From Acidimicrobiales bacterium (GTDB lineage Bacteria; Actinomycetota; Acidimicrobiia; Acidimicrobiales; VFJN01): a stretch of 59,019 nt of DNA. The DNA lies in assembly GCA_035316325.1 (NCBI GenBank), contig DATHJB010000050.1:1-59019 (forward strand). Reading direction: 5' to 3'. The notes beneath the pieces are model-generated. The model was not told the DNA's origin, made no database searches, and was given only the letters and a program-made list of their open reading frames with translations. The translations under genes and the position numbers were made by a program. Of the stretch, positions 4,309 to 41,887 are shown in pieces (the stretch's first letter is position 1; the number at the start of each line of letters is the position of its first letter).

Positions 4309-5580
4309 ATGAGCGTGCTGCCCCGCGACCTCCTGCCCGACAACGCTGCGTACCTGGCCGACGGGTCGCTGTCGATCGCCGGCTGCCGCCTGGACGAGCT
4401 GGCCGGCGAGTTCGGAACCCCGCTGTTCGTCTACGACGAGGCCCACCTGCGGGCCCGCTGCCGGGAGGCCGTCGAGGTGTTCGGCGACGGTGTGGCCTAC
4501 GCCACCAAGGCCTTCCTGTGCCTGGCCATGGCCCGCCTGGCCCACGAGGAGGGCATGTGCCTCGACGTCGCCACCGGCGGCGAGCTGCACGTCGCCCTCG
4601 CCGCCGGGGTGCCGGCCGAGCGCCTGGTGCTGCACGGCAACAACAAGAGCGTCGACGAGCTGCACCACGCCCGCCAGGTCGGGGTCGGGCGCATCGTGGT
4701 CGACAGCTTCGACGAGCTCGACCGGCTCGACCGCCTCCACACGATCGACGGCATCGTCCCGAAGGTGCTGGTCAGGGCCACCCCTGGGGTCGAGGCGCAC
4801 ACCCACGAGTTCGTCCGCACCGGCCAGCTCGACTCCAAGTTCGGCTTCGGGGTCACGTCGGGCGACCTGGCCAAGGCCGTCGAGCGGGCCGCCGGCTCGC
4901 CCTCGGTCGACCTGGTGGGCGTGCACGTGCACATCGGCAGCCAGGTGTTCGTGGTCGACTTCTTCCACCAGGCCGTCGACGTGATCGCGCCCTGGGTGAA
5001 CGACCTGGGCCTGCCCGAGCTGTCGATCGGCGGGGGGCTCGGCGTGGCCTACGTGGAGGGCGAGGAGGCGCCGACGATCTCCCAGTGGGGCCGTACGATC
5101 ATCGACTCCTGTCGCTCGGCCGGCATCGAGACCCGCATCTCCGCCGAGCCCGGCCGGGCCGTCGCCGCCCAGGCCGCGGTCACCCTCTACACGGTCGGCA
5201 CCATCAAGGAGGTGCCGGGGGTGCGCACCTACGTGTCGGTCGACGGTGGCATGAGCGACAACCCGCGCCCGGTCCTCTACGGCAGCGGCTACGAGGCGTT
5301 CCTACCCCGGGCCGCCGACGCCGACCGCCCCCGCACGGTCACGCTGGTGGGCAAGCACTGCGAGTCCGGCGACGTGCTGGTGCGCTCCGCCCAGGTGCCC
5401 GCCGACCTGCGGGTGGGCGACGTCCTGGCCACCCCGGTCACCGGTGCCTACGGCCACTCCATGGGCTCCAACTACAACAAGGTGCCCCGCCCGGCGGTGG
5501 TGTTCGTGCGCGACGGCGATGCCCGCCTGGTCGTCCGCCGCGAGACGCACGACGACCTCCTCCGCTGCGACGTCGGCTGA
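4309..5580 (+). CDS. lysA: Diaminopimelate decarboxylase
   Basis: Decarboxylates meso-diaminopimelate to L-lysine, the last step of lysine synthesis, with PLP. The 423-aa protein has the fold-III signature: K67 in 'YATKAFLC' as the PLP lysine, 'HGNNK', 'GVHVHIGSQ', the Gly-rich 'SIGGGLG' phosphate site, 'EPGRA', and C351 in 'CESGD' supplying the active-site cysteine across the dimer. The ATG at 4309 is preferred over an in-frame GTG at 4285 because TACGCT at 4293-4298 looks like a -10 box and the protein N-terminus then fits the family. The gene is convergent with nadE and shares a strong dyad terminator with it. Confidence 0.93.
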   Translation: MSVLPRDLLPDNAAYLADGSLSIAGCRLDELAGEFGTPLFVYDEAHLRARCREAVEVFGDGVAYATKAFLCLAMARLAHEEGMCLDVATGGELHVALAAGVPAERLVLHGNNKSVDELHHARQVGVGRIVVDSFDELDRLDRLHTIDGIVPKVLVRATPGVEAHTHEFVRTGQLDSKFGFGVTSGDLAKAVERAAGSPSVDLVGVHVHIGSQVFVVDFFHQAVDVIAPWVNDLGLPELSIGGGLGVAYVEGEEAPTISQWGRTIIDSCRSAGIETRISAEPGRAVAAQAAVTLYTVGTIKEVPGVRTYVSVDGGMSDNPRPVLYGSGYEAFLPRAADADRPRTVTLVGKHCESGDVLVRSAQVPADLRVGDVLATPVTGAYGHSMGSNYNKVPRPAVVFVRDGDARLVVRRETHDDLLRCDVG

Positions 5581-39047: not shown

Positions 39048-39827
39048 TCAGTCGACGATGTCGACCGGGGTGCCCAGGGGCAGGGTCATGCCGGAGGTCA
39101 GGCGGGCCAGGATGGCCGGGTCGATGCCGATCGAACCGGCCAGCGCCGGCTTGCCCAGGGTCGTCACGTCGACCGGGTGGATCGCGACCACGCCCTTGCC
39201 GGCCTTGAAGTCCTCGGCCTTGTTGGCCGCACCCGCCAGCCCGTAGACGGGGCTCCCGTAGAGGTTCATGAACTCGGGCGCCCGCAGCTCCTTGATGAAC
39301 GTCGCCGTGCCGGCCGGCGGGGCGTCGGGGCCGAGCGCCACCGGCGCCCTCAGCGCTTCCAGCGGGCCGGCGTAGACGGTCATCTCGTGCTTCGAGAGGG
39401 ACACCTCGATCCGGAAGCGGTGCCGGCTGAGGAACACGTCCTCCGTGTGGACGAAGCCGGTGCTGCCCGCGGGAGCGGTCGGCAGCAGGACCTCCAGCCA
39501 GCCGTCGTCCCGGCGGTCGATCACCAGGAAGGTGAGCAGCTCGCTGCCCTCGTCGGTCGACGACAGGGTGGTCGACTCCGAGCTGTTCGCGTGCTGCCAG
39601 ACCTTCACGTCGCCGCGCACCTGGGCCACGTACGACGTGCGGGGTGGTGGTGCGCCGTCGGCGCCCGTCGTGGTGCTGGTCGTCTCGGCCGAATCGGGGG
39701 CGATGGTCGGCCCCGTCCCGGGCGACTCGTCGTCCGAGCAGGCAGCAACAGCGCCGCCGCCGATCACCACGACGAGCGCCACGAGGAACGCAGCAGGGAA
39801 GGGACGCCTGACCCCCCAGGAGAACAT
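39048..39827 (-). CDS. Lipoprotein with degenerate YkuD (L,D-transpeptidase-like) domain
   Basis: A 259-aa exported protein. A signal with lipobox VAAC places the lipidated cysteine at C30, followed by a Thr/Ser/Pro linker and an SH3-like part (about 65-130). The C-terminal part (137-259) follows the YkuD outline: 'RIEVSLSKHEMTVYAG', 'IHPV' in place of IHGT (216-219), and closing 'LGTPVDIVD'. The catalytic SHGCIR motif reads LAGSIG, so His becomes Ala230 and Cys becomes Ser232. Peptidoglycan cross-linking is therefore doubtful and a binding role likely. It lies 12 bp downstream of the MFS gene. Confidence 0.75.
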   Translation of the reverse strand: MFSWGVRRPFPAAFLVALVVVIGGGAVAACSDDESPGTGPTIAPDSAETTSTTTGADGAPPPRTSYVAQVRGDVKVWQHANSSESTTLSSTDEGSELLTFLVIDRRDDGWLEVLLPTAPAGSTGFVHTEDVFLSRHRFRIEVSLSKHEMTVYAGPLEALRAPVALGPDAPPAGTATFIKELRAPEFMNLYGSPVYGLAGAANKAEDFKAGKGVVAIHPVDVTTLGKPALAGSIGIDPAILARLTSGMTLPLGTPVDIVD

Positions 39828-39839
39828 GGCGGCGCGACC

Positions 39840-41405
39840 TTAGCCAGAATCCCGCACGGGACTCGTCTTCTCCTGTGGCGAAGCTGTTGCGATCGCAGGA
39901 CTTTTGTCGTCCGGGTTCAGGTCCTCCAGCTCGCGCCGGGCCGTCTCGGGGAACCGCAGGGCGATCAGCAGCGCCATCGCCAGGGGGGCGATCGCCAGGA
40001 GCGTCATCGTGGTGCCGAACGAGTCGTACCGGTCGACCAGCACCCCGGCTGTCACCAGCCCGACCACGCTGCCGGCCATGGCGGTGATGCTGACGATCCC
40101 GTTGGCCCGCCCCCGCAGCGACGTGGGGAACAGCTCGGGGCCGTAGACGGTGACCGACGGGACGTGCGCGGCGAAGATGATCGCCCCGACCGTCGCCGCC
40201 ACCCACATCCACAGGCCGGTCACGTCGAACTGGAGGGCGATCAGCGCCGTCCCGGCCGCCGTGGCCACCGCGCCCACGACGCGCCGGCCCACCGTGTCGG
40301 CCAGGCGGCCGCCGGCGATGATGCCGAGGCCCGCCGGCGTCGACGTGAGCACCGCGAACAGCGACAGGCCCGCGGCCGAGAAGCCCCGGTCGTCACGCAG
40401 GAACTCGGCCCGGAGCTGGGTGACCGGCCCGATGAAGATGTTGAGCAGGAACGCGCTGCCGGCCAGCAGGGCGAGCCGGCGGTAGTGCCCCCGCATCGAC
40501 AGCGCCGCGTGGGCCCGCTCGAAGCGGCGGCTCTCGGGCAGCCGCCGGCAGCACCGCACCACCAGCGGCAGCATCAGCAGCGGCACCGCGTAGAGGATCC
40601 GCCAGGCCCGCAGGCCGGTGTCGGCGACGGGGAGGACCCACAGGGCCATGCCGGCACCCAGGGCCCCCGTCATAGACAGCAGGCTGATGGCGTAGGCCCG
40701 GGCGCCGGCCGGCATCTCCTCGGCGACCACGATGCCCAGCAGGATGGCCGCCGCCGCCCACGCCCCCCGGTTGACGACCTGGCTCAGCGTGAGGCCCAAC
40801 AGGTTCGGGGTCACCGCGGCGAGCGCGTCGGACCCGATGCAGATCAGCAGCGTGAGGCGCAGGAGCTTGCGGCGGCCCCGCCGGTCGGCGAGCGCCGTGA
40901 GGGCGATCGACAGGATGCCGCCCACCCGGGCGGTGGCCAGCACGTTGCTCTGGGTGGCGTCGCTGATGCCGAACTCGTCGGCGGCGAAGGTCATCGTCTG
41001 GCTGAGCAGGGTGCCGACGTAGCCGGTCACCATCGCCAGGGCGGCGCAGAGGCCCAGCACCTGGGCGGCCCGCGGGTCGGGGCGCTGCGACGGCGCCCAC
41101 CAGGGCATCCGGCCGCCGGCCCGGGGTGGGCGCCGCAGGGTGGAGCGCACCGCGGCGTTGAGCAGGAGTCGCCAGGTGCCGGGCGGGAGGAGGAAGTCGA
41201 CGGACTCGCGCACGGTCCCGTCGGCGAGGGGGACGACCCGGCGCTCGTAGTGCTCGAAGGGGCCCTCGACCTGGACGAACTGCCGCTCGTCCTCGTGCTC
41301 GCCGTTGGTCGACTCGAGGTGTTCGAGGACGATGTCGTTCCGGGGTGTGAGCAGGACGGCCAGCTCGTCGGCGTCGAGTGATCTCGTGCGTGTGAACCCC
41401 GCCAT
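39840..41405 (-). CDS. Major facilitator superfamily transporter with N-terminal soluble extension
   Basis: A 521-aa transporter with twelve predicted helices and an MFS loop motif 'ADRRGRRKLLRL' after TM2 and 'GGRLADTVGRRVVG' after TM8, the sugar/metabolite-porter pattern ('PELFPTSLRGRANGI' also appears). The first 100 residues are soluble ('DADELAVLLTPRNDIVLEHL', 'YERRVVPLADGTVRES') and absent from ordinary MFS proteins. Substrate unknown. A 33-codon membrane smORF lies 13 bp upstream and the YkuD-like lipoprotein 12 bp downstream, so the three form an operon. Confidence 0.86.
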   Translation of the reverse strand: MAGFTRTRSLDADELAVLLTPRNDIVLEHLESTNGEHEDERQFVQVEGPFEHYERRVVPLADGTVRESVDFLLPPGTWRLLLNAAVRSTLRRPPRAGGRMPWWAPSQRPDPRAAQVLGLCAALAMVTGYVGTLLSQTMTFAADEFGISDATQSNVLATARVGGILSIALTALADRRGRRKLLRLTLLICIGSDALAAVTPNLLGLTLSQVVNRGAWAAAAILLGIVVAEEMPAGARAYAISLLSMTGALGAGMALWVLPVADTGLRAWRILYAVPLLMLPLVVRCCRRLPESRRFERAHAALSMRGHYRRLALLAGSAFLLNIFIGPVTQLRAEFLRDDRGFSAAGLSLFAVLTSTPAGLGIIAGGRLADTVGRRVVGAVATAAGTALIALQFDVTGLWMWVAATVGAIIFAAHVPSVTVYGPELFPTSLRGRANGIVSITAMAGSVVGLVTAGVLVDRYDSFGTTMTLLAIAPLAMALLIALRFPETARRELEDLNPDDKSPAIATASPQEKTSPVRDSG

Positions 41406-41418
41406 CGCCGCCGCGGCC

Positions 41419-41520
41419 TCAGCGCCGGTTGGCGAAGGCGAGGAGCGCTGCGAACGCGGCCACCGGCACGAGCACGAACAGCGCCTCGTCCCAACCGCCC
41501 TGGTGTGCCAGCAGCATCAT
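41419..41520 (-). CDS. Small single-span membrane protein (33 aa)
   Basis: ATG 41520 to TGA 41419 encodes a protein beginning MMLLAHQGGWDE, then one hydrophobic span ('ALFVLVPVAAFAALLAFA') and an NRR end, giving an N-out or N-in topology by the positive-inside rule with Arg inside. On the minus strand TAACCT lies 8 nt before the ATG, the leaderless spacing seen elsewhere here. It is the first gene of the smORF-MFS-lipoprotein group and might be a transporter accessory subunit. Shortness limits certainty. Confidence 0.5.
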   Translation of the reverse strand: MMLLAHQGGWDEALFVLVPVAAFAALLAFANRR

Positions 41521-41608
41521 GGGTGGGAAGGTTACGTCGGTGGCTGTTGTTGCCCTGAGAGCGGCTGGTCCGCGAGCATGCCCTGATGTGCCACGAGCGA
41601 GGAGTCAC

Positions 41609-41887
41609 GTGGTCGAGACAGTGAAGGTCGAGATCGAGAAGGTCGAGCAGGTCATCGAGGTCATCCGTCCGGCCATCCAGGCCGACAACGGTGACATCCA
41701 CCTGCGGGGCGTCGACGTCGACACCGGCGTCGTGAGCGTCGAGCTGGTGGGGGCCTGTGTGTCGTGCCCGGCGTCGACCGTCACCCTCAAGGCCGGCATC
41801 GAGCGGATCCTCAAGGACCGGGTTCCGGGCGTGACCGAGGTGGTCGACGCGAGCGCGGGCGTCGAGACAGCCGTCTCGCTGGGGTAG
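41609..41887 (+). CDS. NifU-like C-terminal domain Fe-S scaffold protein
   Basis: A 92-aa protein consisting only of the NifU C-terminal (Nfu) domain. 'VIEVIRPAIQADNGDIHLRGVD' and the cluster ligands C50 and C53 in 'GACVSCPAS' are diagnostic. It would carry or transfer a 4Fe-4S cluster. GTG 41609 has GAGGAG upstream. Its stop overlaps the start of the MeaB-type GTPase by one base. Confidence 0.92.
   Translation: MVETVKVEIEKVEQVIEVIRPAIQADNGDIHLRGVDVDTGVVSVELVGACVSCPASTVTLKAGIERILKDRVPGVTEVVDASAGVETAVSLG

Follow-up and report, generated by a model that had tools for sequence, protein, structure and literature searches.

The window analysed here (the whole stretch of DNA, 59,019 nt) carries the gene P0002, which begins with an ATG codon and encodes 259 residues without interruption, between genes for an MFS transporter and an alpha/beta hydrolase (Table 1). 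Its start lies 12 nt after the stop codon of the MFS gene, and an AAGG sequence, a possible ribosome site, overlaps that stop. The GC content at third codon positions (GC3) of P0002 is 0.95, like that of the neighbouring genes, and its codon use is normal. The lipobox VAAC (residues 27–30) was recognised by eye and corresponds to LALAC in the orthologue of another genus (genome G001), in support of the lipid anchor proposed in the first-pass annotation. The lipobox Cys, C30, is the sole Cys of the whole protein, so no thiol remains in its C-terminal domain.

Two observations concern genes near P0002. The MFS protein has about 100 residues ahead of the MFS match in which no Pfam match was seen, and the MFS orthologue in G001 is of comparable length. 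A further frame (nt 41429–41887) encodes a CVSCP stretch and resembles a NifU C-terminal domain.

Table 1. Features at the P0002 locus (positions in the window).
Feature	Position	Strand	Evidence
Pseudo-YkuD lipoprotein gene P0002, 259 aa	39048..39827	-	Single open frame; family member
Signal peptide and lipobox (V27 A28 A29 / C30)	39738..39827	-	Sequence reading
SH3b-like domain of P0002, residues 65–130	39438..39635	-	Model of residues 60–137
YkuD-fold domain of P0002, residues 138–259	39051..39416	-	Model, Z 15.1 to 1y7m, rmsd 2.0 Å over 107 residues
Codon of H217, retained catalytic-His column (IHPV)	39177..39179	-	His in 252/252 evaluable family members
Degenerate motif L229-A-G-S232-I-G234 replacing (S/T)xGC(I/V)R	39126..39143	-	Alignment; Cys in 247/252 family members
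MFS transporter, directly upstream of P0002 in operon, 12 nt gap	39840..41405	-	PF07690, E 6.9e-23
Alpha/beta hydrolase (Abhydrolase_11), convergent, second syntenic neighbour of P0002	38478..39044	+	PF20408, E 5.5e-37; syntenic in G001

Taken alone, P0002 scores 13.8 bits against the Pfam YkuD model (PF03734), under the gathering cut-off of 23.4, and a phmmer search of the PDB gave no relevant match. The family profile matches solved YkuD structures at 1.2e-20 and the structural model resembles them as well, so the YkuD assignment is invisible to single-sequence tools and clear with homologues. The AlphaFold2 model, built from a 53-row alignment, has a pLDDT of 79.6 and a pTM of 0.71, with weak stretches at residues 181–190 and 201–210 (mean pLDDT only 58). 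In VIA-align, YkuD of Bacillus subtilis (1y7m) ranks first (Table 1), followed by mycobacterial L,D-transpeptidases at Z of about 13, and Foldseek returned 48 matches at E ≤ 0.001, those listed being L,D-transpeptidases. On this model P0002 has the YkuD beta-sandwich fold, which bears out the L,D-transpeptidase outline first read from the letters of its C-terminal domain.

The N-terminal domain (residues 60–137), modelled separately, reached a pLDDT of 91.9, and by Z its best rows (8.2 to about 6.7) were for the most part bacterial SH3 chains or chains of cell-wall hydrolases. Foldseek gave no match with E under 0.1 for these residues, and the Pfam SH3 models fall short of their cut-offs, in the relatives tested as well. 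The predicted domain is therefore likely, but short of proven, to be SH3b-like; the SH3 domain named in the first-pass annotation gains support at Z values of about 7–8, weaker evidence than that for YkuD.

The family alignment confirms that LAGSIG (residues 229–234; codons CTG GCC GGT TCG ATC GGC) occupies the SHGCIR column and IHPV the IHGT column of P0002. In the latter H217 is present and Gly-Thr has become Pro-Val; the G001 orthologue keeps IHGT. Family matches (E ≤ 0.001) were found in 53 of 99 genomes of relatives. A first survey of 160 distinct ORFs found the Cys in 155, the IHGT His in 160 and the Arg in 157. The survey was then enlarged, from matches with loci or fetched regions and with weaker ones left out, to 253 ORFs, 252 of them evaluable; the catalytic Cys is present in 247 and the catalytic His in all 252. 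The ORF set aside (L328) is one in which unrelated sequence begins before the motif; this family member (L328, nt 183–1145) has either a frame break or a fusion. The Arg two residues after the Cys is found in 249 of the 253 rows, one of the remainder being a gap, and is Gly234 in P0002.

Not every departure from SHGCIR is informative. The His of SHGC had been counted as lost because P0002 has Ala230 there, but this column normally varies (in the 253 ORFs H 115, N 50, S 39, A 32 and others), and the motif of B. subtilis YkuD is SKGC. The change carries no weight and was rejected as a sign of inactivation, the catalytic His being that of IHGT (H217), which is kept. Three losses are informative, those of Cys (now Ser), Arg (now Gly) and Ser/Thr (now Leu); with Cys and Arg gone and no Cys in the domain, the proposal of an inactivated motif is supported. 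Four other members are without the Cys, giving five in all: P0002 (LAGSIG), the G001 protein (DRGAVA), L015 of genome G051 (GPGSLR), L070 of genome G124 (TNGGIR) and L191 of Actinotalea subterranea (PTGSIR). All five retain the catalytic-His column. The genome of P0002 (G000) encodes three further family members (C11, C41 and C126), all with SHGCIR, and these are the only ones listed by a search of that genome with the Pfam YkuD model.

The G001 protein, from another genus, is the syntenic orthologue of P0002. It shares 44% identity, has Ala for Cys and has lost the Arg, and in G001 and the window alike the genes run glpX, acidic protein, DnaJ-like, hydrolase, ykuD, MFS. Judged from these two sequences, the inactivation is common to two genera. 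Close homologues with the full motif, which the first-pass annotation took as a possible sign of local decay, were looked for, with a split result: the closest orthologue is without the motif, and it is present in syntenic relatives further off. By match coordinates, the MFS gene and ykuD are at most about 400 bp apart in 12 of the 99 genomes (G000, G001, G002, G004, G006, G008, G011, G018, G032, G045, G081 and G088), in line with the suggested cotranscription with the MFS gene, and ten of these keep the Cys, the exceptions being G000 and G001. The clade of P0002 has only these two known orthologues, and the family of the window is represented by seven genomes. When further members of the clade were sought in 395 genomes sampled from the class, no match besides G001 was better than 1.9e-34, and none of the new loci (L266–L271) belongs among the Cys-less rows.

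Across the order, many genomes have the hydrolase and MFS genes side by side, some with ykuD between them and some without. In G005, of the same family as the window, they adjoin with no ykuD match between. Within this block ykuD seems to be optional. L070, found by the order search, has the same block. At this locus (nt 851–1573) a GGC codon for Gly, one base away from the TGC (Cys) of relatives, stands at the Cys position, and most other conserved positions are intact; the inactivation of L070 is possibly recent. For L191 and L015 no MFS or hydrolase match was seen within the flanking DNA examined.

A phylogenetic tree of the quick kind was inferred without the motif columns from 136 of the first 160 rows, with 24 of the 29 Demequina rows dropped and later-added rows left off, and the column counts below use the same rows; 51 of its 133 inner branches have support under 80. 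The tree unites P0002 with the G001 protein in a clade (SH-aLRT 99) and shows four changes of Cys state, which suggests that the Cys was lost about four times in the SH3b-YkuD family. The six rows in the clade of L191 all have SHGCIR, and the three in that of L070 have TNGCIR or THGCIR. L191 (nt 5001–5489), which reads PTGSIR against the SHGCIR of these six clade-mates, comes from an isolate. Every Cys-less tip is longer than its Cys-containing sisters: 0.50 against 0.07 and 0.11 for L070, 0.54 against 0.16–0.40 for L191, 1.26 against about 0.65 for L015, and, for P0002 and G001, a stem of 0.62 plus 1.1 and 0.89, against about 0.56–0.64 in neighbours.

Other positions were lost together with the nucleophile. 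The conserved set comprised 39 columns that are at least 85% conserved in the 131 Cys-containing rows; these rows keep a median of 38 (minimum 27), and the Cys-less proteins keep 24 (P0002), 27 (G001), 31 (L015), 31 (L191) and 33 (L070). S201 is lost in 5/5 Cys-less rows against 4/131 with Cys, T172 in 4/5 against 2/131, and S229 is not Ser in 5/5 against 7/131, L070 having a Thr that the motif permits. The SH3-like domain has lost N120 in 3/5 against 3/131, and in P0002 the RPNG loop of this domain is degraded (R118A, N120A). Permutation across the four lineages gave 22 co-lost pairs against 14.4 expected with P0002 as representative (p 0.011) and 24 against 12.4 with G001 (p 0.0004), in shuffles that were weighted by background and ignored relatedness among the Cys-containing rows. 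Under the same weighting, the maximum number of lineages sharing a lost position (four) is not unusual (p 0.23 and 0.20). The pattern points to relaxed constraint on a set of catalysis-related positions that includes the SH3-like loop.

If the enzyme had merely become dispensable, P0002 could be a slowly decaying gene whose frame is simply unbroken so far. The longer branches of all four Cys-less lineages relative to their sisters are what such decay would produce, the absence of ykuD between hydrolase and MFS in G005 means that the gene can be lost, and the raw NG86 dN/dS between P0002 and G001 is 1.00. This ratio gives no positive sign of strong constraint on P0002, and at face value it would mean none. 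It is read here as saturation, since the GC-rich synonymous sites (GC3 0.95–0.99) are near their ceiling. Neutral change should saturate both classes of site. In this pair pS is 0.388 against a ceiling of 0.458 from codon-shuffled pairs (85%), and pN is 0.388 against 0.717 (54%). This difference, the open frame and the normal codon use argue against simple decay, as do the high GC3 and the preservation of frame, lipobox and 12-nt operon spacing in two genera. Identity is even over the two domains (SH3-like 29/64, YkuD 57/121). The neighbouring genes are held more tightly, with pN at 19–41% of its ceiling, and no gene of the block is less conserved than ykuD (44% identity against 57–79%). The values are read as weak but real constraint after inactivation, on the assumption that the common ancestor of the pair had already undergone the loss, and slow decay is considered unlikely.

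It had also been suggested that the protein may use serine, Ser232 acting with H217 in a serine-dependent L,D-transpeptidase or hydrolase. Ser does occupy the Cys column in three of the five Cys-less proteins (P0002, L015 and L191), and all five keep the His. However, the alignment of homologues proposed as a check found that the Ser is not conserved: the closest, syntenic orthologue has Ala (codon GCC), so Ser232 (TCG, two changes from TGC) is not a conserved nucleophile. Mutants reported in the literature point the same way. None of four muropeptide substrates was turned into product by LdtMt2 C354S, the authors stating that a potentially nucleophilic Ser cannot stand in for the Cys (PMC11410929), and LdtJ C390S of Acinetobacter baumannii lost its activities while the fitness and shape of the cells were kept (PMC12548408). 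The YafK protein Lpg1514 has a serine-dependent beta-lactam activity, but it relies on Ser132, which lies outside the Cys site (PMC13400389). P0002 has, besides, lost the Arg and other near-invariant positions. A review motif includes HG(S/T) and the Arg column (PMC12729407), and LdtMt2 has Asn356 two residues past the Cys, a residue that contacts mDAP (PMC11410929); this position is Gly in P0002 and Ala in G001. A serine nucleophile was rejected on the orthologue and the mutants, and a serine enzyme is considered very improbable. An assembly or sequencing error at the motif, conceivable in a window that is a contig from a 244-contig assembly, was rejected as having next to no probability, since an independently assembled genome carries an orthologue whose motif has degenerated too, to other residues, and the frame is unbroken.

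The reading preferred here, and held to be probable, is that P0002 is a non-catalytic envelope protein kept after its nucleophile was lost, before the two genera diverged. The ancestor would have been a lipid-anchored SH3b-YkuD L,D-transpeptidase at an MFS – ykuD – hydrolase locus, where other genera of the order still encode an active-looking form. The nucleophile would have been lost prior to the divergence of two genera in the family of the window, and P0002 then retained as a lipid-anchored, non-catalytic envelope protein. Presumably the protein is made and inert. It probably works by binding or as a scaffold, not by catalysis, and it may act on a partner protein, on the neighbouring MFS transporter or, via the SH3-like domain, on the wall. 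Any L,D-transpeptidation in this genome would be supplied by C11, C41 and C126 with their SHGCIR motifs. The original proposal that P0002 may bind peptidoglycan stands in part: the SH3-like fold permits it, but the RPNG loop, the mDAP-contact Arg and other near-invariant positions are gone. The degraded loop (R118A, N120A) weakens a peptidoglycan-binding role, and the loss of other near-invariant positions and of one substrate-contact position makes it doubtful that tetrapeptides bind in the original groove.

A wider and rather improbable reading is that pseudo-L,D-transpeptidases form a recurring class of envelope regulators, marked, in a single actinobacterial family of SH3b-YkuD lipoproteins, by about four Cys losses, convergent co-losses (S201, S229, T172, G209 and the RPNG loop) and retention of the fold and the catalytic His. 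If it were true, these recurring pseudo-YkuD regulators would be the YkuD counterpart of the degenerate LytM regulators EnvC, NlpD and ActS; and if P0002 itself is a regulator, YkuD would, like LytM, be a wall-enzyme fold put to new use in control. Since annotation of L,D-transpeptidases goes by fold, proteins like P0002 would be counted as cross-linkers though very probably unable to act as such. The four separate losses in one family provide natural comparisons of intact and Cys-less sisters, and they mark positions beyond the textbook motif, including the SH3-like loop, whose loss accompanies that of the nucleophile.

One YkuD domain without the Cys has been published before: the second YkuD domain of LdtPae1 of Pseudomonas aeruginosa reads QLGKIR (PMC10434034). 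It was the only case found in literature on Cys-less or pseudo YkuD proteins, drawn mostly from papers outside subscription, in which neither a stand-alone Cys-less YkuD lipoprotein nor repeated Cys loss in one family was found; no paper linking YkuD with Acidimicrobi was found there either.

P0002 is like the YkuD-family L,D-transpeptidases (1y7m; LdtMt1 and LdtMt2) in its predicted fold, the catalytic-His column and the Gly before the nucleophile position, and differs in being without the Cys nucleophile, the (S/T)xGC motif and the Arg/Asn after it, and in having HPV for HG(S/T). In LdtPae1 the Cys-less domain accompanies an active first domain, whereas in P0002 it is the sole YkuD domain of a lipid-anchored SH3-like protein. 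LdtJ C390S is a laboratory counterpart of P0002, the change from C to S killing activity and leaving a non-catalytic function; unlike P0002 it is engineered, and there the YkuD domain itself was dispensable for the remaining function (PMC12548408). EnvC, NlpD and ActS have a fold unrelated to that of P0002. Like P0002, these proteins have a peptidoglycan-enzyme fold that has lost its catalytic residues, NlpD and ActS are lipoproteins, and degenerate LytM proteins activate amidases, so that a dead wall-enzyme fold can regulate (PMC8360153).
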